NCBI RefSeq assembly: GCF_013266695.1
Contig: NZ_JABRXF010000001.1
Span: 248,001 to 312,000 of the forward strand
Length of the DNA: 64,000 nucleotides
Origin: Hongsoonwoonella zoysiae
GTDB taxonomy: Bacteria; Pseudomonadota; Alphaproteobacteria; Rhizobiales; Stappiaceae
Direction of reading: 5' to 3'
The position numbers and the translations under genes were made by a program. This document shows positions 50,739 to 63,861 of the stretch, piece by piece. Numbering within the stretch: position 1 is the stretch's first letter; every line of letters starts with the position of its first letter. Below the pieces are notes generated by a model. That model did no database searches. It saw only the letters and a list, made by a program, of their open reading frames with translations, and was not told the DNA's origin.

Positions 50739-51953
50739 GTGAGTGGCCCGCAGCCCGTACGCCAACGGGACCCGCGACTGGATTTCTTCCGCGGTCTCGG
50801 AATGTTCATTATCTACATCGCCCACCTTCCCAACAATTCGTGGACGTTGTGGATACCCGCGCGTTTCGGTTTTTCAGACGCGACCGAAATCTTCGTCTTC
50901 TGTTCCGGCATGGCATCGGCAATCGCCTTCGGGGCGGTGTTCGAGATGCGCGGCTGGATGATGGGCACCGCGCGCATCCTGTACCGGATGTGGCAGGTCT
51001 ACTGGGCGCATGTACTGCAGTTCCTCGTAATCGCCGCCGGCCTCGTCGCGATACAGCAAAGCGGCTACCTGGAGGAATGCTGCGGGCTGACGGAAAACTA
51101 CGTCACGAAGCTCAATCTCTGGCATTTCTTCAACAAGACGCCCGACACGCTGCCGGGCCTCCTCACGCTCACCTATGTGCCGAACTACTTCGACATCCTG
51201 CCGATGTATATCGTCATACTGGCGCTTATCCCGGTGATGATGGCGGCGCATCGTTTCGCGGGACGCGGCGCGGTCTTTGCGCTGATGACCGTTTTCTGGC
51301 TTGCGGCCACCTTCGACATCATCAGCTTCCCCGCCGAGCCCTGGTCGCAGCGCGAATGGTTCTTCAATCCGCTTGGCTGGCAGCTCGTTTTCTTTACCGG
51401 CTTCGCCTTCATGCGCGGCTGGATTCCGGCGCCGCCGGTAAACCGCGGCCTGATGCTGGCGGCTGTCGTACTTGTCCTAATCACCATCCCGCTGGCCTGG
51501 TTCCGGGTTTACCGGGAATTCGAGATGCTGTCCGAAATACGCCTGGCGCTGCGCCCGTTCTGGACGAAAACGGACTTCGGCATCTTCCGCTACATCCACT
51601 TCCTGGCGCTTGCCTATCTGGCATGGATCGCGGTGGGCGCAAAGGGCAGATACCTTGTGACGGACAATGCCTGGGGCAGCGTCGTGCGCGTGATCCAGAA
51701 GGTCGGGCAGCAGTCGCTCGCCGTCTTCCTGGCTAGCCTCGTGATAGCGCAGGCAGCCGGCATATTGCGCGACATGGTCTGGGGGCGCGGCAACCCTCTC
51801 ATCGTCTTCCTCGCCAATGCAGGCGGTTTTGCAGCGCTTATCGCGGTTGCCTATGCCGTCGGCTGGTTCAAGGGGCAGCCCTGGAAACGAAAGCCCGTAG
51901 GTGAAGCCTCCCTAAAGGAGGCGCGCTACCTCGGCAAGCAGCCCGCCGAATAG
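50739..51953 (+). CDS. opgC: OpgC family membrane acyltransferase (succinyltransferase) for periplasmic glucans
   Basis: 404 residues from GTG 50739 (SGPQPVRQRDPRLDFFRG). About ten membrane segments. RLDFFRGLGMFIIYIAHLPNN, ARFGFSDATEIFVFCSGMAS, YVPNYFDILPMYIVIL and WFFNPLGWQLVFFTGFAF are typical of OpgC. The family succinylates osmoregulated periplasmic glucans; in rhizobia OpgC decorates cyclic beta-1,2-glucans. A glucan synthase-type gene (opgH) lies 1 kb downstream on the other strand. Confidence 0.92.
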   Translation: MSGPQPVRQRDPRLDFFRGLGMFIIYIAHLPNNSWTLWIPARFGFSDATEIFVFCSGMASAIAFGAVFEMRGWMMGTARILYRMWQVYWAHVLQFLVIAAGLVAIQQSGYLEECCGLTENYVTKLNLWHFFNKTPDTLPGLLTLTYVPNYFDILPMYIVILALIPVMMAAHRFAGRGAVFALMTVFWLAATFDIISFPAEPWSQREWFFNPLGWQLVFFTGFAFMRGWIPAPPVNRGLMLAAVVLVLITIPLAWFRVYREFEMLSEIRLALRPFWTKTDFGIFRYIHFLALAYLAWIAVGAKGRYLVTDNAWGSVVRVIQKVGQQSLAVFLASLVIAQAAGILRDMVWGRGNPLIVFLANAGGFAALIAVAYAVGWFKGQPWKRKPVGEASLKEARYLGKQPAE

Positions 51954-52026: not shown

Positions 52027-52112
52027 CGCACTATTCCCGCCCAGCTCTTTTGGCTTAGGTGATGAATTCTAATCCATGGGCCAACAGGTTTCGCAAAAAT
52101 ATTGGGGGATTG

Positions 52113-52868
52113 ATGATAAAGACGCCCGCCTTGTCAGAAGACCAGATTGCCGCGTTCGAGCGCGACGGCTTCGTCCATGTTCCGGCCGCTTTCGACGCGA
52201 CTGACGTCGAAACCATTCTTGCCTGGACGAGCGAAGTGATGGCCATGCCCGAGGTGCCGGGCCGGCAGTGGGTCTACCACGAGAAAAGCCGCGTTGACGG
52301 CGCGGACCTTGTCAACCGCATCGAGAAAATCGCCCCCTTTCACGATGGTTACCGCCGCCTGACGGAAGCCCTGGGCGATGTGGCGTCAAGCGCTCTGCGC
52401 GAACCCGCCGTCCTCTTCAAGGAAAAGATCAACTTCAAGATGCCGGGTGGCGGCGGATTCGAGCCGCATCAGGACGCGCAGGCCGGCTGGAACGACTATG
52501 CGCAGGACTTCGTCAACGTGATGCTGTGCCTTGACGAAGCGACGATCGAGAACGGCTGCCTGGAAGTGACCGCCGGCCACCACAAGCGCGGCCTTCTGCG
52601 CGGCATGGAGCCATTGACGGAAGAAGACATGGAAGGCATGGACTTCGTCCATTGCCCGACGAAGCCCGGCGACCTGGTGCTGTTCGACGCCTATTGTCCG
52701 CACCGCTCCGCCCCCAACCCGACGAACGCCTCTCGGCGGATGTATTTCGCGACCTACAACAAGGCCTCGCAAGGCGACCACTACGATCGCTACCACGCCG
52801 ACAAGCACCGGAATTTTCCGCCGGACATCGAGCGCGAGCCCGACCGGGAATACGTCTACAAGGTTTGA
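52113..52868 (+). CDS. Phytanoyl-CoA dioxygenase (PhyH) family Fe(II)/2-oxoglutarate oxygenase
   Basis: 251 residues from ATG 52113 (MIKTPALSEDQIAAFERDGF) with GGGGGA just upstream; frames open at GTG 52059 and ATG 52062. The iron-binding facial triad is visible: His and Asp in FEPHQDAQAGW and the distal His in YCPHRSAPNPT, with Arg in NASRRMYF as the 2-oxoglutarate anchor. It hydroxylates an unknown substrate. Flanked by opgC and convergent opgH, with strong terminators on both sides, so it is a single-gene unit. Confidence 0.9.
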   Translation: MIKTPALSEDQIAAFERDGFVHVPAAFDATDVETILAWTSEVMAMPEVPGRQWVYHEKSRVDGADLVNRIEKIAPFHDGYRRLTEALGDVASSALREPAVLFKEKINFKMPGGGGFEPHQDAQAGWNDYAQDFVNVMLCLDEATIENGCLEVTAGHHKRGLLRGMEPLTEEDMEGMDFVHCPTKPGDLVLFDAYCPHRSAPNPTNASRRMYFATYNKASQGDHYDRYHADKHRNFPPDIEREPDREYVYKV

Positions 52869-52952: not shown

Positions 52953-54827
52953 TCAGGCGTCGGCCTTCACAAGGTCCGGCTTGTAATCCGGCACCGTGCC
53001 GGCTCCGAGCGCCGTCAAGGCCCCGAGGCGCAGAGGAAGCAGGCAATTGGGAGCTTCCTGCTCCTCCGGGATCCGCCACAGCGAAGAGGCGAGCGCAAGC
53101 CGCCCGGCCTCGCGGCGCGCCGTCAGAAGCGCGAAGGGAACAGCCAGCAAAGGCCCAAGGACCACCGGCAGAAGCGGCAGGACGAGCGCCCAGGACTGGT
53201 TCGCCGTCCAGAGAATACCGGCGGCGCCGAACAGGGCTTGCGGCCAGAGCTTCGATACCGTCAACCGCAGGGGAAGCCCGTGCGGGCTGCGCGCCTGCGC
53301 GCCCCATCCCATCGCCCGGCCGAAAGGGAGACCGGCGATGAAGACGGAAACGGCCACGGCCATGATCGGCGCGAGCAGCGCGGAAAAGGCGATTTCGCCC
53401 GCCGTGCCCGCAACGACACGCAATCCGCCGCCAAAGCGCTTGCGCAACTTCCTGTCGGCCAGAATATCCAGCACCGTCGCGATCTTCGGGGCAAAGACCA
53501 TCGTCATGATGATGCAAAAGAGCGCAAAGCCCGTCGTCGCGTCGAACTGCAGCATCTGGTCGCCGCCGACGACCGCAAGCGTGGCCGCGAGCGCCATGAA
53601 GATGAGCCAGGCGGGAGAACTGACGAACATCAGGATCGCCAGCACGAGCTGTATGCGGCTGGTAGCCTTGATGCCGGACAGGCCCAGAAGCTTCAGATAC
53701 TGAAGATTGCCCTGGCACCAGCGCAATTCGCGGCGGATGAACTCCAGAAGATCCGGCGGGTTTTCCTCGAAGCTCTCCGTTTCGAGGGGAAGCACGCGAA
53801 CCTCGTATCCGGCGCGGCGCATCAGGACCGCCTCGACCTGGTCGTGGCTCAGGATCGGGCCCGAAAGCGGGCCTTTACCCGGCAAAACCGGCAGGTGACA
53901 CGCCTCGATGAAGGGTTTCAGCCGAAGCACAGCGTTGTGCCCCCAGTAGGGGCCGCAATCGCCCTGCCACCAGGCGCTGCCGGTGGTGTAGGAGCGCATG
54001 CCGAGACGCATTCCGAACTGGAATACGCGCGCGAACGCGCTTGTCGTCGGCATGCCGACGACAAGGCTCTGCAGGATGCCAAGGCGCGGGTTCGCCTCCA
54101 TCCGCCGAACCATGTCGAGAATAGTCGAGGCGGACATGAAACTGTCGGCATCGAGCACCAGGGCATAGTCGTGACTGTGGCCCCAGCGTTCGCAGAAATC
54201 GCGGATATTGCCCGACTTGAAGGCGAAATTATCCTTGCGGCGGCGGTAGATCACCCCCATGTCGCCGCGCCAGCGTTCCGCGAGGTCGGCAAATACACGC
54301 TCCTCGCGCGCGGCGACGATCTCATTCGACGTGTCGCTGAGGACGTAAAACCGGAAAGCGCCCGCCTCGCCGCTGCGAACCAGATCGGTGATCATCGCCT
54401 CGAGGTTGGCGGCCACCGCATCGACATCCTCGTTGCGGATGCAGGACAAAACGGCGGTGGAAGAGGAAAGCGGCAAGCTCTTGTCCCCTACCGCGACCGG
54501 GCAGACCCTGGCGACCGGATCTTTGGAAAGGCGCATGACAAGGAGGCCGACGACGGCGTTCCAGAAGCCGATCACCGTCCAGGGAAGCGTGGCGGCGAAG
54601 CAGACCAGCATCGCCCCTTCCCCCCAGCTTATGCCGTTCGTGGAAAGGGTAACGCTCATGAGCGCGATCAGGCCGGCCATGGAAGAAAGCACGAAAGCCG
54701 CGAAGACCAACCGCCTGAAGGCCATGGGATTGCGCCGCGATGCAGCTTCGCCTTCCGGGTTGCCGGAGGCGTTCTCTCCCACGAGCTCGCGGGCGGGGAT
54801 TTTAGCTGAAAGCATGTTACGCGCCAT
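52953..54827 (-). CDS. opgH: Glucans biosynthesis glucosyltransferase H
   Basis: 624 residues from ATG 54827 (MARNMLSAKIPARELVG); a TTG at 54836 is the only upstream alternative. Family 2 glycosyltransferase loop between membrane helices: DTSNE, DADSFMSASTILDMVRRME, GPYWGHNAVLRLKPFIEAC, SHDQVEAVLMRRAGYEV and the RRELRWCQGNLQYLKLLGLSG motif. In enterobacteria MdoH/OpgH makes the linear beta-1,2-glucan backbone of periplasmic glucans. The expected partner OpgG is not in this window, though opgC is nearby. Confidence 0.93.
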   Translation of the reverse strand: MARNMLSAKIPARELVGENASGNPEGEAASRRNPMAFRRLVFAAFVLSSMAGLIALMSVTLSTNGISWGEGAMLVCFAATLPWTVIGFWNAVVGLLVMRLSKDPVARVCPVAVGDKSLPLSSSTAVLSCIRNEDVDAVAANLEAMITDLVRSGEAGAFRFYVLSDTSNEIVAAREERVFADLAERWRGDMGVIYRRRKDNFAFKSGNIRDFCERWGHSHDYALVLDADSFMSASTILDMVRRMEANPRLGILQSLVVGMPTTSAFARVFQFGMRLGMRSYTTGSAWWQGDCGPYWGHNAVLRLKPFIEACHLPVLPGKGPLSGPILSHDQVEAVLMRRAGYEVRVLPLETESFEENPPDLLEFIRRELRWCQGNLQYLKLLGLSGIKATSRIQLVLAILMFVSSPAWLIFMALAATLAVVGGDQMLQFDATTGFALFCIIMTMVFAPKIATVLDILADRKLRKRFGGGLRVVAGTAGEIAFSALLAPIMAVAVSVFIAGLPFGRAMGWGAQARSPHGLPLRLTVSKLWPQALFGAAGILWTANQSWALVLPLLPVVLGPLLAVPFALLTARREAGRLALASSLWRIPEEQEAPNCLLPLRLGALTALGAGTVPDYKPDLVKADA

Positions 54828-54921
54828 TAAAACCAACTCTTTTTGTATTCAGCCCGACACTGTGGCTGTTTCGAGGCCTGATTGATGCGATATACGGGGC
54901 AAAACCCGCACAGGATTTACG

Positions 54922-55953
54922 ATGCAGCGCAATCAGCCCGAACGCCCGTCCGAAAACGCTCCAGATAGCGCGCAAGCGCTCTGGTACGTCGCGCCCGGCA
55001 AGCTGGAGCTGCGGCGCGAGGACCTGCCCGCGCCCGCGCAAGGCGAATTGCGCGTGCGCACGCTCTTCAGCGGGGTAAGCCGGGGCACCGAAAGCCTCGT
55101 CTTTCGCGGCCGGGTTCCGCAAAGCGAATGGCAGCGCATGCGCGCGCCCTTCCAGGCGGGCGATTTTCCCTATCCTGTCAAATACGGCTACGCCTGCGTC
55201 GGCATGGCCGAAGCGCAGGAAACTGCCGGCAGCGCCCGGCCCGTCTTCGTGTTGCATCCCCATCAGGATCTGTTCAACGCCCCCGTTGGCTCGCTTGTTC
55301 CCGTTCCGGAGGGCATACCCTTTGCCCGTGCGGTACTTGCAGCAAATTTAGAGACTGCACTCAATGGGTTATGGGACGGATCGCCATCACCGGGGGATCA
55401 AATTACCGTGGTCGGAGGCGGCGTGGTCGGGCTTTTGGCCGGCTGGCTCGCCGCTTCCATTCCCGCTACGTCAGTTACACTGATCGACGTGAATCCGCAA
55501 AAGGAATCGATCGCGCGCACGCTCGGCATGCGCTTCGCAACGCCCGGTAATGCCGACGGAAACCAGGATCTCGTGATCCACGCGAGCGGACGCGCTGAGG
55601 GCCTCAACACCGCGCTCGAACTTGCCGGAATGGAGGCGACCGTCCTGGAAATGAGCTGGTATGGGGATGCGCCTGTAAGCGCCTGCCTGGGCGGCGCGTT
55701 CCACAGCCGCCGCCTGACCCTGAAGTCGAGCCAGGTCGGACGCATTCCCGCCGACCGCCAGGCACGCTGGACCTTCCGCCGCAGAATGGAGACCGCGCTA
55801 TCACTTCTTCGTGACGATAGGTTAGATGCCCTTCTCGAACCGGCTATTCCCTTCCACAAGCTGGCTGAGGAACTGCCTGACGTCCTGTCGGGAACGCGCG
55901 ACGCCCTTGCCCAGGTCGTCTCCTATCCCCGACGTTCCGCCAAACGCCCCTGA
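54922..55953 (+). CDS. MDR-type dehydrogenase lacking zinc ligands
   Basis: 343 residues of the medium-chain dehydrogenase/reductase fold. The cofactor motif VVGGGVVGLLAGWLAA and LIDVNPQKE indicate NAD(P) binding. The zinc ligands of alcohol dehydrogenases are gone: the Cys-Gly-Thr-Asp site reads GVSRGTESLVF, and the GHE site reads YGYACVG. The SRGTE motif recalls the BchC-like branch. First gene of a five-gene block with a PTPS homologue 24 bases downstream. Divergent from opgH. Confidence 0.85.
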   Translation: MQRNQPERPSENAPDSAQALWYVAPGKLELRREDLPAPAQGELRVRTLFSGVSRGTESLVFRGRVPQSEWQRMRAPFQAGDFPYPVKYGYACVGMAEAQETAGSARPVFVLHPHQDLFNAPVGSLVPVPEGIPFARAVLAANLETALNGLWDGSPSPGDQITVVGGGVVGLLAGWLAASIPATSVTLIDVNPQKESIARTLGMRFATPGNADGNQDLVIHASGRAEGLNTALELAGMEATVLEMSWYGDAPVSACLGGAFHSRRLTLKSSQVGRIPADRQARWTFRRRMETALSLLRDDRLDALLEPAIPFHKLAEELPDVLSGTRDALAQVVSYPRRSAKRP

Positions 55954-55977
55954 AAATCACCCGAGGAGTTACGCCCC

Positions 55978-56379
55978 ATGCACGCCGTCGAGGTCCGCGA
56001 CCACATCATGATCGCCCATTCCTTCAAGGGAGACCTGTTCGGCCCGGCGCAGGCGCTGCATGGCGCGACCTTCGTGGTGGACGCGGCCTTCTTCTCCCGC
56101 GAGCTCGACGAGAACGGCGTGGTAATCGATATCGGCCGCGCCCATGAAGTGCTGAAGGAAATCCTCGCGCCGCTGAACTACAAGAACCTCGACGAGGTGC
56201 CGGAGTTTTCAGGGAAAAACACGACAACGGAATTCCTGACCCGCCATATCTTCAACCGTTTGAGCGACGCCGCGAAGGCGGAACAGCTGGGGCGAAAGGC
56301 CGGCGAGATCGCCACGATCAGGGTCACACTGCATGAATCGCACGTCGCGCGCGCCTGGTACGAGGGCGCGGTCGGCTGA
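55978..56379 (+). CDS. Degenerate 6-pyruvoyl-tetrahydropterin synthase/QueD homologue
   Basis: 133 residues. The T-fold is recognisable: IAHSFKGDLFGPAQALHGATF, NYKNLDEVPEFSGKNTTTEFL and VTLHESHVARAWYEG. The substrate-anchoring Glu (Glu120) is kept, but the catalytic apparatus is not. The protein has no cysteine at all; the catalytic Asp-His pair (LDH in QueD) reads LNY (67-68); and the second His of the zinc motif HGH is Ala (HGA, 28-30), leaving His14 and His28. It may bind a pterin or run different chemistry. GGAG precedes the ATG. Confidence 0.85.
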   Translation: MHAVEVRDHIMIAHSFKGDLFGPAQALHGATFVVDAAFFSRELDENGVVIDIGRAHEVLKEILAPLNYKNLDEVPEFSGKNTTTEFLTRHIFNRLSDAAKAEQLGRKAGEIATIRVTLHESHVARAWYEGAVG

Positions 56380-56395
56380 TGCCGGATAACCTTCG

Positions 56396-57448
56396 ATGAG
56401 CGAAACGATCCACTTTCTCTATCCGGGCGACATCGACACGCCGACCGGCGGATACGCCTATGACCGCCGGCTGATTTCGGCGATGCGGGAGGAAGGTGTG
56501 CTTGTGCAGGCGGCCTCGCTTGGCGAGGGCTATCCCGCGCCTTCCAACGCGGCCCTGGAACGCGCGGCGGCGGCATTCGCGAAAATGGCGGACGGGAGCA
56601 CGGTGATCGTCGACGGCCTCGCCTTCGGCGTTCTGGACGAAATCGCCCATGCTCACCGAAACCGGCTGAGGCTGATCGCACTCGTCCACCATCCGCTCGC
56701 GCTAGAGACCGGGCTCGACGCAAGGCGAAGCGAGGTTCTGAGGCGAAGCGAGACACGGGCCCTTTCCCTGGCACATGCCGTGATCGCAACCAGCCGGGCG
56801 ACCGCCGATATGCTGGTCGCGGAATTTGGCGTTCAGAAAGAAAAAATAACCGTGGCCGAACCCGGGTTCGATCGGGCCGAACCGTCGCGCGGCCGCAACG
56901 ACGGGAAGGTGGGGTTGATTGCCGTCGGTTCAGTGGTGCCACGCAAGGATTACGCAACCCTCGTCGCAGCGCTTGCCCGCCTGACCGACCTGCCGTGGCA
57001 TCTCGATATCGCCGGAGATGACACGCGCGATACGGAATACGCGGCTTCAATCCGGCAGATGGTCGAAGCAAATGGCCTGCCGTCCCGCATCACGCTGCAT
57101 GGCGCGCTTTCCGCCGAAGCGCTCGATGAGCTCTATGCGTCCGCCGATATTTTCGCGCTTACAACCCGTTACGAAGGTTACGGGATGGCGTTCGCCGAGG
57201 CGATGATGCGCGGGCTTCCGGTGGTCGCGACCGGCGAAGGTGCTGTGCGCGACACCGTGCCGGAAAGCGTGGGGTTCGTGCTTGCCGGAGGCGACGCCGA
57301 GGGCGTCTCCAGGGCGTTGTCGAAGCTGATCGCAGACGCTGGCCTGCGCGCGACCCTGCGAATGGCCGCGATGAAACACGCGAAAAGCCTGCCGGCGTGG
57401 CGCGATACGGCGCAATCGGTCATCACCGGAATCAAGGAAACGCAATGA
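56396..57448 (+). CDS. GT4 family glycosyltransferase
   Basis: 350 residues, GT-B fold. N-terminal half: YPGDIDTPTGGYAYDRRL and ALVHHPLALETGL. C-terminal half: LIAVGSVVPRKDYATLVAAL, DIAGDDTRD, RITLHGALSAEALDELYASAD and the donor-binding EGYGMAFAEAMMRGLPVVA with the Glu-x7-Glu pattern. It sits between a PTPS homologue and a methyltransferase, so the acceptor may be a pteridine, as with cyanobacterial pteridine glycosyltransferases. That link is inference. Overlaps the next gene by 4 bases. Confidence 0.9.
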   Translation: MSETIHFLYPGDIDTPTGGYAYDRRLISAMREEGVLVQAASLGEGYPAPSNAALERAAAAFAKMADGSTVIVDGLAFGVLDEIAHAHRNRLRLIALVHHPLALETGLDARRSEVLRRSETRALSLAHAVIATSRATADMLVAEFGVQKEKITVAEPGFDRAEPSRGRNDGKVGLIAVGSVVPRKDYATLVAALARLTDLPWHLDIAGDDTRDTEYAASIRQMVEANGLPSRITLHGALSAEALDELYASADIFALTTRYEGYGMAFAEAMMRGLPVVATGEGAVRDTVPESVGFVLAGGDAEGVSRALSKLIADAGLRATLRMAAMKHAKSLPAWRDTAQSVITGIKETQ

Positions 57449-58254
57449 GCGGATTTTCAAGCGAGTGGCTTTCATTGCGCGCACCGGCGGATGCGCGCGC
57501 GCGCAACGAGGACGTGATATCCGCCTTTCTCGAGAGGCTGCCGCAAAACCGGCCGCTTCACCTTGTCGATCTCGGCTCGGGAACCGGGGCGACAGTGACG
57601 GCGTTTGCTCCGCGGATCGCGGGAAAACAGCGCTGGACGCTTCTCGACAATGACAAAGAGCTTCTCGAAATCGCCAGCCGCCGGGCACATGAATATACCA
57701 ACCTGGAAATCGAAGCCTCGGTTGCGGACCTTTCGCGCGGAATTGACGCGGGCGCGCTTGAGCAAGTCGACGCGGTGACGACCTCCGCGTTTCTCGACCT
57801 CGTCCCGGCGAAATGGATCGATGATCTTGTAGACACGCTTTCCGAACGGCGGCTTCCGTTCCTGGCTTTCCTGACCTACGACGGGCGAGCAAGGCTCGAT
57901 CCGCCCCATCCCTTCGACGAGACGATCCGCCTTGCCATGAACCGGCACCAGAAGACCGACAAGGGGCTGGGCGCAGCGCTTGGCCCGGATGCCGCGCAAT
58001 ATGCGCTGCAGCGGTTCATCGCGGCGGGATTTACGGCTATCGCAGGCGCTTCGGACTGGCATTCATTGAAGCAGGAAACACCCTTCCAGACCGCGCTGCT
58101 CGATGGCTGGGCGAATGCCGCGCGCGAAATCGGCGAAGAAGAGGACGAAGTGAATGCGTGGCGCGAAGAACGACAGCGGCTGCTTGATGCGGGCAGCCTG
58201 ACATCGACGGTCGGCCACATCGATTTCGCGGCGTTTCCAGCGAAATCAGGCTGA
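57445..58254 (+). CDS. Class I SAM-dependent methyltransferase
   Basis: 269 residues from ATG 57445 (MSGFSSEWLSLRAPADARAR), overlapping the glycosyltransferase stop. Motif I LHLVDLGSGTGATVTAF, motif II LLDNDKELLEIASRRA and VTTSAFLDLVPAKWIDDLV identify the fold. A Cys-poor domain after that (LAMNRHQKTDKGLGAALGPDA) is typical of this gene block. Probably methylates the product or intermediate of the cluster. Convergent with the RibD-like gene, 2 bases apart. Confidence 0.88.
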   Translation: MSGFSSEWLSLRAPADARARNEDVISAFLERLPQNRPLHLVDLGSGTGATVTAFAPRIAGKQRWTLLDNDKELLEIASRRAHEYTNLEIEASVADLSRGIDAGALEQVDAVTTSAFLDLVPAKWIDDLVDTLSERRLPFLAFLTYDGRARLDPPHPFDETIRLAMNRHQKTDKGLGAALGPDAAQYALQRFIAAGFTAIAGASDWHSLKQETPFQTALLDGWANAAREIGEEEDEVNAWREERQRLLDAGSLTSTVGHIDFAAFPAKSG

Positions 58255-58256
58255 CG

Positions 58257-59078
58257 TCAAGCCGTTCCGCCGGTCGGCCTGCCCCCGGAAAAATCGCAGT
58301 CGATCAGAATTTCCTCGCCCAGACGATGCATTGTCGTGCGCGGGCGGATCGCCTCGTCGATGCGCTCGATGGGCGGAAGCTGAAGCCCCGTGGGCCCAGC
58401 GCCAATGATCATTGGCGAGACCAGCAGATGCAGCCGGTCAAGCGAACAGCTCGTCAAAAAGCGGGAAATCGTAGCCCCGCCGCCCTCGATCAGAACCCGG
58501 CGAAAGCCCTGTTCGGCGAGCAGCGCGCGGATGGCTTCCGGATCGAAGCCCTCATCGGAAATGGAAAGCCGCAACACCTCCACATTGTCCGGCGTCTCTG
58601 GCGCGGCGTCAGGTCCCGTGATCAGGATGCACCTTGCATCGCCGGTGCAAAGGCTCGACCAGTCGTGCAGGCGGCCGCGCGGATCGATGACGACACGCGC
58701 CGGATTCCTGCCCTGTACGCGCCGCACGGTCAGGCGCGGCCTGTCGAAAAGGGCCGTCCCGACACCCACAACGACGGCGTCGCAGACCGCGCGCAGGCGA
58801 TGGAGATGAGCAAGACAGGCTGCGCCGTTGATATATTTCGAATGGCCGGTGACCGTCGCGATGCGCCCGTCCAGCGACTGACCAAGCTGGCCGATCATCA
58901 GCGGCTTTGAGGAAATGTCGAGGAGCGGCTGAAACAGCGCCTGCCAACTCTCCGGCAGTTTTCCCGCGCCGTTGTCGAAAGCGGTCAGAACCTCAGCCCA
59001 ACCATCGTCCGATATCTCGGGTAAAGGAGATGACGCAGGAAAACCACTTTCCATGACCGTCGACGGTCCCAAAGCCAT
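58257..59078 (-). CDS. RibD C-terminal/dihydrofolate reductase-like reductase
   Basis: 273 residues from ATG 59078 (MALGPSTVMESGFPASS); TTG 59096 and ATG 59054 are alternatives. The N-terminal 60 residues are not recognised. Then the RibD_C fold: LMIGQLGQSLDGRIATVTGHS, ACLAHLHRLRAVCDAVVVGVGTALFDRPRLTVR, ARVVIDPRGRL, and RVLIEGGGATISRFL. The family reduces pyrimidine or pterin-like substrates with NADPH. The deaminase domain of RibD is absent. Convergent with the methyltransferase gene; same functional block. Confidence 0.87.
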   Translation of the reverse strand: MALGPSTVMESGFPASSPLPEISDDGWAEVLTAFDNGAGKLPESWQALFQPLLDISSKPLMIGQLGQSLDGRIATVTGHSKYINGAACLAHLHRLRAVCDAVVVGVGTALFDRPRLTVRRVQGRNPARVVIDPRGRLHDWSSLCTGDARCILITGPDAAPETPDNVEVLRLSISDEGFDPEAIRALLAEQGFRRVLIEGGGATISRFLTSCSLDRLHLLVSPMIIGAGPTGLQLPPIERIDEAIRPRTTMHRLGEEILIDCDFSGGRPTGGTA

Positions 59079-59337
59079 CGCCTGTTTCTCACGCAACTTA
59101 CTACTCCGGATATCTGACTGAAGGTTTCTTCCGCGCCCTCTGCCGCGAAAGCCAATAAAGCAAATATCAAATCGCCGTGATCCGTGGTTTCTACGCGAGG
59201 GGAAGGAAAAACGATCACCGGTCGCGAAGGCTTGATTGAAACAAGCCGGGCGCGAATGCTTCAGGTGTGTCGAATAACCGCAAAACGCCCTAGACTCAGG
59301 AACAGGGTGAAAAAGGCGAATGCTCGGGAGGGTTCGA

Positions 59338-59883
59338 ATGACAGTGACGGCAGAGGCAAAAGGTTTCGTCTACACGCCAACAGCGCGCATATTTCATTGG
59401 GTCACGGCCATTCTGGTTCTGGCGATGGTGCCGGCGGGCATCACCATGGTGAACATCGGGCCGGGCAAACTTCAAAACACGCTGTTCGACTTTCACCGTT
59501 CGACGGGCGTGGTCCTGTTCGTTATCACCGCCGCGCGCCTCGCCTGGCGGCTGACGCACCCGCCCGCCCCGCTAAGCACCGATATCCCGAGGTGGCAACG
59601 CAGGGCCGCGCGCGCGACGCATGTCCTTTTATATGTCGTGCTGCTGGGAACGCCGCTTCTAGGCTGGGTGGCAACCTCGGCCTATCCGGCCGCCATTCCG
59701 GTCTACGGGCTTTTCACGCTGCCGCCGATCATCGGCCCGAACCGGGAGCTTTCGAATGCTCTTTTCAATATCCATCAGGTGATCGGCATCATCTTCAGCA
59801 TTGCCGTGGTCATTCACATCGCAGCGGCGCTCCATCACCGGCTCGTGCTGAAGGACGACGTCATGACCCGGATGACCGGATAG
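59338..59883 (+). CDS. Cytochrome b561
   Basis: 181 residues from ATG 59338 with GGAGG 6 bases upstream; ATG 59320 would add six residues. Four membrane helices. Heme-ligand His residues are in ARIFHWVTAILVLAMVPAG, TLFDFHRSTGVVLFVI, LFNIHQVIGIIFS and VVIHIAAALHHRLVL. A small membrane electron carrier that may oxidise quinol or reduce superoxide, as its E. coli relative CybB. Single gene ending in a hairpin. Confidence 0.93.
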   Translation: MTVTAEAKGFVYTPTARIFHWVTAILVLAMVPAGITMVNIGPGKLQNTLFDFHRSTGVVLFVITAARLAWRLTHPPAPLSTDIPRWQRRAARATHVLLYVVLLGTPLLGWVATSAYPAAIPVYGLFTLPPIIGPNRELSNALFNIHQVIGIIFSIAVVIHIAAALHHRLVLKDDVMTRMTG

Positions 59884-61162: not shown

Positions 61163-61508
61163 GGCTATCCTCCCGAAATCTTCCTGTCGTGCAGCCGTGG
61201 TCTAGCCGAAGCGGGTCGGCCTGAACAGACGCAATCTAATAATTGACTGACCGAACGGTCAATTAATTTCCGCTTCTGAATTCCAATATCGCCGATTTCG
61301 CCGGATCATGCTTCTTCGATCGGCCTGCGCCTCGTCGGGCAAAGCTGAACATTCAGGTAGTAACTAACGATAAACGTTAACTGTTTTTAACCTGTTTTTT
61401 CCTTGGTCACTTTAACGTTTCTAAATCCCAACTCTCGATACTCACGCAAGGTTCACAATGAACCGCCGCCGAATTTTCAGCTCGAGGTCAAGAAGAGAGA
61501 GTTGCGTC
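61163..61508. other. Divergent regulatory interval, AT-rich in part
   Basis: 346 bases between the thiolase and carrier-protein genes, holding both promoters. Features seen: a TetR-type palindrome (61241-61268), an AT-rich stretch near 61355-61440 with TAACG/CGTTA arms, and a short inverted repeat GGTTCA/TGAACC (61450-61464). The frame starting at ATG 61458 joins the carrier protein in frame but adds an unlikely basic extension. Confidence 0.45.
61241..61268. promoter_or_regulatory. TetR-type palindromic operator upstream of thiolase gene
   Basis: The 14-bp core (61248-61261) is a perfect palindrome with GACCG and CGGTC arms around AA. Outer AATT/AATT arms extend it to 28 bp with two mismatches. 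It resembles binding sites of TetR-family regulators of aromatic or acyl-CoA catabolism (PaaR type). It lies 79 bases before the thiolase start and 240 before the carrier-protein gene. Confidence 0.6.
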
Positions 61509-61766
61509 ATGAGCACTGCGGAAACGGTTCGCAAGATCGTCGCCACGCACGGAAAGCTGCCCGTCGATGTCGGTACGATTGCCGACGACGGCGACCTTTA
61601 CAGCGCCGGACTGTCTTCCTTCGCATCGGTGCAGCTTATGCTCGCGATCGAAGAGGAATTCGACATTGAATTCCCCGAGACGATGCTCAACCGTGGCACT
61701 TTCGCCTCTATCGCGTCGATCGCCAAGGCTGTCGACACGATTTCGGCCGAGCAGCAGGCCGCGTGA
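61509..61766 (+). CDS. Acyl carrier protein-like carrier for aminoacylation
   Basis: 85 residues from ATG 61509 (MSTAETVRKIVATHGKLPVD). Four-helix carrier: DDGDLYSAGLSSFASVQLML holds the phosphopantetheine Ser, here in a GLSSF motif instead of the usual DSL. The acidic helix IEEEFDIEFPETM follows. This sequence type is paired with amino acid:carrier-protein ligases in rhizobia. The next gene starts within its stop (TGATG). Converted from apo form by a phosphopantetheinyl transferase elsewhere. Confidence 0.9.
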   Translation: MSTAETVRKIVATHGKLPVDVGTIADDGDLYSAGLSSFASVQLMLAIEEEFDIEFPETMLNRGTFASIASIAKAVDTISAEQQAA

Positions 61767-62947
61767 TGAATATCGTCACCAAAGCCGTAGCGGCAGAGCT
61801 TTCCGACCGTGCCCGGCGCGCCGCCAAGGTGGCGGGCGAATTCGCCGACGCTGTCGACCGCGAGGGCCGTTTCCCGCGCGAAGGCATGGATGCGCTGAAA
61901 AACGAGCGCCTGATGAGCATTCAGGTCCCGGGCGAACTCGGCGGCGAAGGCGCGAGCATGCAGGAAATCGCCGAGGTCTGCGCGATCCTGGGTCAGGCTT
62001 GCGCATCCACCGCGATGACCTACGCCATGCACCAGATCCAGGTGGCAAGCATCGTCGGCTATTCCGGCAACAGCGCCTGGCATGCGGATTTCCTGAAGCG
62101 GCTTTGCGACGAGCAGGTGCTGATCGCTTCCGCAACCAGCGAGGCCGGCATCGGCGGAAACCTGCGCAACTCCGTCTGCGCGATCGAGGTGGACGGCGAT
62201 ACGGTGCGCCTTGAGAAGGATGCCACCGTCATTTCCTACGGCGAGATGGCGGATGCGATCCTCATCACTTCGCGCGCTCACAAGGATGCGCCGCCGAGCG
62301 ACCAGGTCAGCACGCTTTTCCTGAAAGGCCAGTACACGCTGGAGCATACCCGCGACTGGGACACCCTCGGCATGCGCGGCACGTGTTCCGACGGTTACAT
62401 CTTCCGCGGCGAAGCGCCGAAGGAACAGATCCTGCCCCGACCATTCGCGGAAATCGCGGCGGAATCCATGCTCGCCGTCTCGCATCTTCTGTGGGGCGCG
62501 CTGTGGTACGGGATCGCGGCGGATGCCGTAAACCGCGCGCAAAGCTTCGTGCGCGCCGCCGCCCGCCGCCAGCCGGGATCAACCCCTCCGGGCGCGTTGC
62601 GCCTTGCCGAAGCCTCCAGCCTGTTGCAGCAGGTCAAGGGCAACGTGGTCGCAGGCCTTCGCCAGTTCGAGGAGGCGAAGACCGACGCGAACAAGCTTTC
62701 GGCCATGAGCTTCGCCGTTGCCATGAACAACGTGAAGGTCGGCACGTCCCAGACGATCCTGACGATCATCAACCACTGCATGCTGATCAACGGGATCATG
62801 GGCTACAAGAACGGCACGCCATACAGCCTCGGCCGGCACCTTCGCGACGCCCATTCCGCGCAGCTGATGATTTCCAACGACCGGATCCTCGGCAACACCT
62901 CGACCATGCTCCTGGTTCACAAGCAGGACACAAGCCTGATCGGATAA
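61766..62947 (+). CDS. Acyl-CoA dehydrogenase-like flavoprotein of the carrier-protein cluster
   Basis: 393 residues from ATG 61766, overlapping the carrier stop. Acyl-CoA dehydrogenase fold: helical N-domain ([34 protein letters not shown]), FAD/acyl-binding strand segment ([17 protein letters not shown]), and C-terminal helices ([20 protein letters not shown]). The usual catalytic Glu in the IYEGT motif is not present; the aligned stretch reads LMISND. It may oxidise an aminoacyl-carrier thioester, as PltE-type enzymes do with prolyl carriers. That is inference. Confidence 0.87.
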
Positions 62948-62952
62948 GACCC

Positions 62953-63861
62953 ATGGACGCGCAAACTTCCTTTCTCGACAAGCTCTTCGACCGGGGCCTC
63001 CTTCATTCCTCCGGTGTCGACGGGCTTTACGCCAGAAGCGGCGCGTTCGAGGACGTCATCCGCCGTTTCGAGGACTATGTGCTGAAGATCGGCGAGGACG
63101 AGACATCGGAAGCAATGGTCTTTCCGCCCGGCATGACGATGGCCGACTTCGAGACGAGCGGCTACATGAAGAACTTCCCGCAGCTTGCGGGCACCGTGCA
63201 CGCCTTCTGCGGCGACCACCACGGCCACATGGGCCTTCTGGAATGCATGGCGACCGGCAAGGACTGGACGGAAGGCCAGAAGCGCACCGACCTCGCGCTG
63301 ACCCCCGCCGCCTGCTATCCGCTTTACCCGATTTTGGCCCGTCGCGGAGCGCTGCCGGAGGGCGGCGTGACGGTGGCGCTGCAGTCCTACTGCTTTCGTC
63401 ATGAGCCGTCGAAGGATCCGGCACGCATGCAGATGTTCCGCCAGCGCGAATACGTGCGCGTGGGCAATGCCGACGAGGCGATTGCGTTCCGCGAAACCTG
63501 GAAGCGGCGCGGCAAGGAAATCATGGACGCGCTGCAACTGCCCGCCCATGTAGATGTCGCCAACGACCCCTTCTTCGGCCGGGCCGGCAAGATGCTGGGC
63601 GCAAGCCAGCGCGAACAGGAGTTGAAGTTCGAAATGCTGGTGCCGATCACCTCCTCGGAAAACCCGACAGCCTGCATGAGCTTCAACTACCACATGGACA
63701 ATTTCGGCAAGGCCTGGGGCATCACCCGCGCCGACGGCGAACCGGCCCATACAGCCTGTGTCGGCTTCGGGCTGGAGCGGCTTACGCTCGCGCTCTTCCG
63801 CCATCACGGCCTTGAGATCGAGGACTGGCCGGACGCCGTCCGCGCCACGCTTTGGGGCTGA
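62953..63861 (+). CDS. Amino acid:[carrier protein] ligase (class II aaRS-like)
   Basis: 302 residues. Catalytic core of a class II synthetase, related to atypical seryl-tRNA synthetases but lacking a tRNA-binding domain. Motif 2 [10 protein letters not shown] (about 162-171) and motif 3 [16 protein letters not shown] (about 271-286) are present. Cys121, Glu166 and Cys269 form the expected Cys-Glu-Cys zinc site that binds the amino group. Characterised relatives in Bradyrhizobium and Agrobacterium load glycine or alanine onto a carrier protein. ATG 62953 lies 5 bases after the flavoprotein stop. Confidence 0.93.

Follow-up and report, generated by a model that had tools for sequence, protein, structure and literature searches.

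A conserved gene cluster around an SCO6650-type PTPS-fold protein in Hongsoonwoonella zoysiae and related loci, with a possible role in making a pterin-type glycoconjugate

Proteins of the 6-pyruvoyltetrahydropterin synthase (PTPS) family COG0720 are distinguished by short motifs: CxxxHGH in PTPS-I (QueD), CxxxxxHGH in PTPS-II and ExxHGH in PTPS-III. The function of PTPS-V is described as unclear in the same paper (PMC5041015). Both Chlorobium and cyanobacteria have pteridine glycosyltransferases (PMC5683033). A PTPS-fold gene and a glycosyltransferase gene occur together in the window analysed here, which is the whole stretch of 64,000 nucleotides at positions 248,001 to 312,000 of contig C1 (NZ_JABRXF010000001.1) of the alphaproteobacterium Hongsoonwoonella zoysiae. 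They are accompanied by genes for a dehydrogenase, a methyltransferase and a convergent RibD_C reductase (Table 1). A preliminary description had grouped these five genes into a block that might make a glycosylated, methylated pteridine. The five genes belong together, and they have a sixth partner encoding an OpgH-like membrane glycosyltransferase. The enlarged cluster suggests that a membrane step should be added to the pterin-type glycoconjugate reading. No paper describing the gene set or its product was found in the literature, judged by titles and abstract openings.

The open reading frames and the sequence agree on all five genes at the positions first described. The methyltransferase ATG overlaps the stop of the GT4 gene, and the RibD_C gene, with its stop at 58257, converges on the methyltransferase end across a gap of 2 bases. 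Pfam recognises the PTPS (83.8 bits, cut-off 22.4), Glycos_transf_1 (95 bits), Methyltransf_25 (34 bits) and RibD_C (118.8 bits) domains. None of the five proteins attains a curated NCBIfam cut-off, so labels assigned by automatic annotation, such as 6-carboxytetrahydropterin synthase, are unsafe. Membership of the five-gene unit is real; its boundary had been drawn too narrowly, since the OpgH-like gene is a sixth member.

Table 1. Core genes of the cluster and one frequent companion, in positions of the window; counts refer to the 87 compared loci defined in the text
Feature	Position	Strand	Basis
OpgH/MdoH-like membrane family 2 glycosyltransferase, sixth core gene	52953-54836	-	Divergent from dehydrogenase; NCBIfam models and linkage; 63/87 loci
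MDR-type dehydrogenase, BchC-like, apparently without the usual zinc ligands	54922-55953	+	Open reading frame, NCBIfam and PDB similarity, motifs; 83/87 loci
PTPS-fold protein, SCO6650 subfamily, catalytic residues replaced	55978-56379	+	Pfam, PDB match, alignment
GT4 glycosyltransferase, R-K and E-x7-E donor site intact	56396-57448	+	Pfam, PDB comparison, alignment; 84/87 loci
Class I S-adenosylmethionine-dependent methyltransferase	57445-58254	+	Open reading frame, Pfam; 79/87 loci
Stand-alone RibD_C reductase	58257-59078	-	Pfam, NCBIfam, PDB; 57/87 loci; alternative TTG start at 59096
Prokaryotic cytochrome b561, frequent companion	59320-59883	+	Pfam Ni_hydr_CYTB, 101.3 bits; 33/87 loci

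The PTPS subfamily is found in 39 of 150 genomes from the same order as the window genome (the order sample), at 53-100% identity in 38 of them and as a fragment in one. The dehydrogenase subfamily occurs in the identical set of 39 genomes. The RibD_C subfamily is present in 30 of these 39 versus one of the 111 other genomes, and that one (G123) is 56% complete. All 30 order-sample loci that were fetched, including that of the window, contain the dehydrogenase, PTPS-fold and GT4 genes, and 29 also contain the methyltransferase gene, with a span within 3.4 kb; the locus without it (L031) is a shorter contig piece. The preliminary description had asked whether the five genes rarely co-occur, and they do co-occur. 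The subfamily identity thresholds were fixed after gaps in the score lists were visible. For the PTPS subfamily, 39 of 42 matched genomes were kept and three weak ones were dropped (G035, G112 and G122; 27-29% identity). For the dehydrogenase, 39 of 45 genomes matched at 1e-20 were kept, and six below 150 bits were dropped (a fragment in G111, and G061, G130, G005, G099 and G087). The RibD_C set comprises 31 of 61 matched genomes (at least 44% identity and at least 136 bits; a G111 fragment with 45% and 62.8 bits was dropped), and the OpgH-like set 34 of 84.

Gene neighbourhoods were compared in 87 loci: the window, six plasmid loci and the 80 genome loci nearest to the window PTPS-fold protein, which are the best 80 of at least 584 confirmed relatives. 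PTPS is present in all of them by construction. Ten of 20 plasmid records were examined, and four loci (L152-L155) stand outside the 87. Genes were counted by tblastn on the fetched DNA, so some matches to large families may be unrelated paralogues. The dehydrogenase and PTPS-fold genes are on one strand and less than 300 bp apart in 81 loci, as are the PTPS-fold and GT4 genes, again in 81. The fetched DNA contains the complete set of five families in 48 loci and the first four of them in 72. Other recurrent families are RibA, the GTP cyclohydrolase II (33/87), FkbM methyltransferase (25), CDP-alcohol phosphatidyltransferase (16), sulfatase-annotated (10), flippase-like (9), creatininase-family (5) and inositol-monophosphatase-family (4) proteins. 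Similar blocks are also found in beta- and gammaproteobacteria, an acidobacterial metagenome-assembled genome and actinobacteria. The pathway is thus widespread, with at least 584 related loci in a scan of one genome per species across 84,980 species, and the literature searches gave no described product for it. Mantel correlations between the cluster genes are all positive, but these statistics ignore kinship and are given little weight.

The PTPS-fold protein retains the fold of its family and has lost the residues by which its named members are recognised. In alignment with E. coli QueD, the catalytic Cys27 is replaced by Gln and the zinc ligand His33 by Ala in all 87 homologues, His71 by Tyr in 86 and by Phe in one, and Asp70 mostly by Asn (72/87; Asp is retained in three). 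His16, His31 and the pterin-anchoring Glu110 are retained in all 87; the QueD residues are given the roles that we take them to have. The genome loci were selected with the patterns FGPAQx[LM]HG and VRDH[IV]MIA, which make Gln25 and His28 (window protein numbering) conserved partly by construction; Ala30 and Tyr68 lie outside the patterns. QxxHGA replaces CxxxHGH in 18 sequences, comprising the window protein and 17 relatives from a pattern-free protein search. The relatives share the invariant block VRDHxMIAHS..FGPAQxxHGAT, with many invariant residues. The PTPS-II and PTPS-III motifs are likewise absent, QxxHGA standing in their place. The window protein thus shares its fold family with PTPS-I, II and III (Pfam PF01242) but differs from them in motif, and it misses the QueD cut-off of TIGR03367 (39.1 bits versus 89.25). 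The single PDB sequence that it matches at E ≤ 0.001 is SCO6650 (3D7J; E 2.8e-42), and by sequence it is classed as a member of the SCO6650 subfamily, not as a QueD or a PTPS. The authors of the SCO6650 structure reportedly described a pterin-like pocket in a protein devoid of zinc, catalytic triad and PTPS activity.

Automatic annotation of the plasmid records as 6-carboxytetrahydropterin synthase would fit a true QueD acting in the synthesis of queuosine or another 7-deazapurine. That reading was rejected and is regarded as extremely improbable, given the Gln and Ala in place of the CxxxHGH residues, the TIGR03367 score and the window genome's three short partial QueC-domain matches, with no full one. 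The PTPS-fold protein could also be a pterin-binding sensor or carrier that steers the pathway without being an enzyme, as its replaced catalytic residues and retained pterin anchor would allow. Its close same-strand place after the dehydrogenase gene and before the GT4 gene, and its many invariant residues, suggest a synthetic role instead, and a sensor is considered very improbable. The link to SCO6650 extends to gene order. A Streptomyces plasmid locus (L034) has the same dehydrogenase-PTPS-GT4-methyltransferase order as the window, plus RibA; it differs in having a CDP-alcohol enzyme in place of the OpgH-like gene and in having no match to RibD_C. The orphan structure 3D7J thereby gains a conserved pathway context.

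The dehydrogenase has no Pfam match above the cut-off. Its best NCBIfam model is BchC (38.8 bits, cut-off 291), and its PDB matches, the best at E 1.8e-7, are dehydrogenases of alcohols and sugars, so that it is weakly recognisable as a medium-chain dehydrogenase/reductase (MDR) type. The motifs SRGTE and YGY are invariant in the alignment, at positions where zinc-type relatives presumably carry Cys and GHE; the name "zinc-binding" is doubtful for this protein. The GT4 glycosyltransferase retains R183-K184 and E260-x7-E268, which we take to be the donor-site signature, and it is therefore probably active.

The preliminary description had pointed to the dedicated pteridine glycosyltransferase of cyanobacteria. 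The GT4 shares the broad GT4/group 1 type with the solved tetrahydrobiopterin glucosyltransferase (9v0l), and the likeness is generic, in a comparison made with 9v0l only and not with the Chlorobium enzyme. 9v0l scores 25.7 bits and ranks 44th of 48 PDB sequences; the rank is inflated by many higher-ranking glycogen synthase fusion constructs, yet other GT4 enzymes reach 57 bits. The analogy consequently finds no special closeness to rest on. This also bears on the possibility of a soluble pterin glycoside of the cyanobacterial or Chlorobium type, acting as a light screen or cofactor, with the membrane genes as mere neighbours. The joint presence of GT4, methyltransferase and PTPS fold would suit such a product, as would the existence of pteridine glycosyltransferases in those bacteria (PMC5683033). 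Set against it are the distance of the GT4 from 9v0l, the missing PTPS catalytic residues and an OpgH-like subfamily that tracks the cluster, and we consider it improbable.

The RibD_C protein and its association with RibA point to riboflavin-type chemistry. The nearest of 18 PDB sequences are 6p8c and 2azn (about 90 bits each), with deaminase-fused RibD lower. These two are named as diaminopyrimidine- and (putative) aminouracil-nucleotide reductases and are stand-alone enzymes of the riboflavin path. Like these archaeal-type reductases of 2,5-diamino-6-ribosylamino-4(3H)-pyrimidinone 5'-phosphate (DARPP), the window protein has no deaminase domain; unlike them, it is bacterial, lies in a non-riboflavin locus and is below the TIGR01508 cut-off. 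Among the 62 full-length loci, which are those of at least 18 kb, RibA is present in 22 of 41 with RibD_C versus three of 21 without it (p 0.003). In the 30 PTPS-positive genomes with RibD_C, the gene is within 10 kb of the PTPS-fold gene in 22, at least 57 kb away on the same contig in five (G106, G070, G142, G065 and G100) and on a separate contig in three (G089, G052 and G137). G137 is not counted as a separate arrangement, because the contig breaks within the cluster, leaving the methyltransferase gene and a partial GT4 gene at the end of the RibD_C contig. Four of the five genomes with a distant RibD_C gene have RibA at most about 0.6 kb from it, and four have cytochrome b561 no more than 1.6 kb away. 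RibA, RibD_C and cytochrome b561 thus behave as a sub-module.

The catalytic Tyr of RibA is readable in 27 of the 33 proteins. It is replaced by Met in the Streptomyces locus L034, and the search pattern missed the site in L056, L062, L087, L105 and L116. We take the Tyr-to-Met position to be the one that gives a formylated product. L034 also carries a creatininase-family gene. In Sinorhizobium, the creatininase-family enzyme BrbF deformylates such a formylated intermediate, and the enzyme that makes it is described in that paper as still to be discovered (PMC9478397). The pair in L034 would make chemical sense because BrbF deformylates that product. As a general rule, a formylated-intermediate route was rejected, as Tyr is found in 27 readable RibA proteins and Met in L034 alone. 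Two creatininase-family genes are found in the window genome, and a second RibD_C gene there, of 387 amino acids, is probably RibD.

The sixth gene encodes an OpgH-like protein that passes the models NF003962 (487.8 bits, cut-off 328) and NF003958 (547.4, cut-off 419), while its best-scoring model, NF003963, gives 697.1 and is under its cut-off of 884; further OpgH models are missed as well. The gene is divergent from the dehydrogenase gene at less than 600 bp in 60 of the loci that contain it. Its subfamily is found in 34 order-sample genomes, 32 of them PTPS-positive (the remaining two are G076 and G111), and is set apart by score, with at least 472 bits inside and at most 346 to the remaining OpgH-like proteins in the order sample. 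The window protein passes two models of the OpgH/MdoH glucan glucosyltransferase but differs from it in forming its own subfamily without a link to OpgG. No OpgG gene is linked to the cluster: the OpgG copies of the window genome are at C1:946555 and C1:1122735, and a separate OpgH-like gene at C1:948413 (35% identity) adjoins one of them. Ordinary osmoregulated periplasmic glucan synthesis was accordingly rejected as the role of the cluster gene. In the G111 genome, contig C12 has an OpgH-like gene and a truncated dehydrogenase gene lying against a RibD_C fragment (L144:7753-10483), with no PTPS match genome-wide, and this locus looks like a decayed copy of the cluster.

Two membrane modules alternate. 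Among the full-length loci, 42 have only the OpgH-like gene, 14 have only the CDP-alcohol phosphatidyltransferase gene, one has both and five have neither (Fisher p about 5e-9). The flippase-like gene is found solely with the CDP-alcohol gene (9/9). Seven PTPS-positive order genomes do not have the OpgH-like subfamily; four of these have a CDP-alcohol gene nearby, and G081, G055 and G092 have neither in the fetched stretch. One ABC exporter family is present in ten loci and adjoins the OpgH-like gene in eight betaproteobacterial ones. The L060 exporter, the only one tested, scores above the cut-off of the glucan ABC transporter model (811.5 bits versus 733) and below that of the chvA model (559.3 versus 585.4). 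Because the OpgH-like and CDP-alcohol genes alternate, and because of the exporter, the system probably includes a membrane or export step, apparently carried out in two ways. Neither Pfam nor NCBIfam gives a match for the sulfatase-annotated protein of L033.

The same membrane genes could belong to a cell-surface glucan or glycolipid locus. The OpgH-like family 2 glycosyltransferase, GT4, methyltransferase, exporter and CDP-alcohol enzyme would then form the core, and the PTPS-fold and RibD_C proteins would have been co-opted for carbohydrate chemistry unrelated to pterins. The frequency of the OpgH-like gene and the exporter beside it would suit such a locus, as would the CDP-alcohol, flippase-like, sulfatase-annotated and FkbM genes of other loci and an OpgC homologue about 1 kb past the OpgH-like gene, on the far side of a PhyH gene. 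RibA and its association with RibD_C have no obvious glycan role, the pterin-anchoring Glu is retained, and OpgG is unlinked, with an OpgG/OpgH-like pair elsewhere in the genome. Taken together, the glucan or glycolipid explanation seems doubtful. The OpgC homologue (50739-51953) and the PhyH dioxygenase (52059-52868) lie just beyond the OpgH-like gene. OpgC was rejected as a cluster part, as its reading frame falls in no family of at least four members across the 87 loci. The nearest model for PhyH is methylphosphonate hydroxylase (167.3 bits, cut-off 500).

The observed gene set, linkage, active-site residues and alternation of membrane modules can be read as a horizontally spread pathway from GTP through DARPP to a reduced, methylated and glycosylated pyrimidine or pteridine that is passed to the membrane or exported. 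We favour this reading tentatively, at a little under an even chance, and infer every substrate and the order of the steps. The route from GTP to DARPP and on to its reduced form is the simplest reading because RibA recurs in the loci and RibD_C is nearest to reductases of the riboflavin path. DARPP would arise from the opening of GTP by GTP cyclohydrolase II, whose gene accompanies the cluster in many relatives and is located elsewhere or replaced in H. zoysiae. The stand-alone RibD_C protein would reduce DARPP ahead of deamination, so that the compound would leave the riboflavin path with its 2-amino group. A metal-free PTPS-fold protein and the MDR dehydrogenase might then shape the reduced product into a pteridine-like or ribityl-diaminopyrimidine compound, which the methyltransferase and GT4 would decorate. 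The OpgH-like glycosyltransferase here, or the CDP-alcohol phosphatidyltransferase (often with the flippase-like protein) elsewhere, may extend or anchor the compound and deliver it to the membrane or the periplasm; cytochrome b561 may hold it reduced there. Mixed taxonomy and plasmid locations suggest lateral spread. In two Rhodobacterales loci (L155 and L096), an inositol-monophosphatase-family gene lies beside the GT4 gene, and L155 also has a PfkB kinase gene near the cluster; these are candidates for dephosphorylation and rephosphorylation steps.

Several results weigh against this pathway. A pteridine-specific GT4 is not supported, the likeness to 9v0l being generic, and the PDB sequence comparison gives no evidence that the GT4 uses a pterin. 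The PTPS-fold protein is without the known catalytic residues in 87/87 and may, judging from these residues, be no enzyme at all. The RibD_C protein is under every curated NCBIfam cut-off (TIGR01508, 95.6 versus 186.45; TIGR00227, 119.6 versus 150.15), and three further PDB sequences that bear the DARPP reductase name come near the bottom of its match list (25-29 bits). Nine of the 39 PTPS-positive genomes do not have the RibD_C subfamily. Cytochrome b561 is not enriched with RibD_C in the full-length loci (19/41 with it versus 8/21 without; p 0.6). Two of three Streptomyces plasmid loci examined (L152 and L154) have PTPS without the dehydrogenase, GT4 and methyltransferase, and an Arthrobacter locus (L153) has the dehydrogenase and GT4 with the methyltransferase unmatched. 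The creatininase-family protein of L034 scores 141 bits with a mycofactocin peptidase model (cut-off 172) versus 37 with the archaeal deformylase (cut-off 180); such genes are also too few among the 87 loci for a pathway step to be based on them. No RibA gene is linked to the cluster in the window, and the linked-RibA query finds no match in the window genome or in four further genomes of the same family. The window genome has a single GTP cyclohydrolase II domain, which belongs to a RibB fusion (C3:479726-481063; L143:8727-10064) and is without the Cys ligands seen in the linked RibA proteins. The first step in this genome must therefore use another enzyme, as no intact GTP cyclohydrolase II was found; archaeal-type GTP cyclohydrolase III also has no match there.

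The pterin or lumazine link proposed at the outset gains strength from the linked RibA genes, the nearest relatives of RibD_C and the retained Glu110. Against the earlier interpretation stand the lost PTPS catalytic residues, the generic likeness of the GT4 to 9v0l and the OpgH-like gene with its exporter, which point to a membrane or glycan step that the preliminary description did not include. A pterin-type glycoside is a plausible though unproven product, with its glycosyltransferase argument weakened. If the favoured pathway holds, it would be a bacterial branch that diverts the GTP cyclohydrolase II product from riboflavin. It would also suggest a membrane step for a pterin-like molecule, to be set against a 2026 review (PMC13259868) that states that an efflux system for pterins has yet to be identified. 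A more specific form of the pathway is unlikely: a new membrane-anchored or exported redox molecule, built from a 2-aminated GTP-derived pteridine or ribityl-pyrimidine, glycosylated, carried on a short glucan (OpgH-like) or a phospholipid (CDP-alcohol) and kept in redox exchange with the quinone pool through cytochrome b561. If true, it would amount to a periplasmic pterin-type cofactor or antioxidant spread by lateral transfer over several phyla.

Outside the cluster, the PTPS subfamily genes of the Streptomyces plasmid loci L152 and L154 lie beside shared cupin, MEKHLA-domain and MBL-fold metallo-hydrolase genes. Further along the window (61458-63861), consecutive genes encode a carrier protein, a protein resembling acyl-CoA dehydrogenases and one that weakly matches class II aminoacyl-tRNA synthetases, a trio that we take to resemble amino acid:carrier protein ligase systems.

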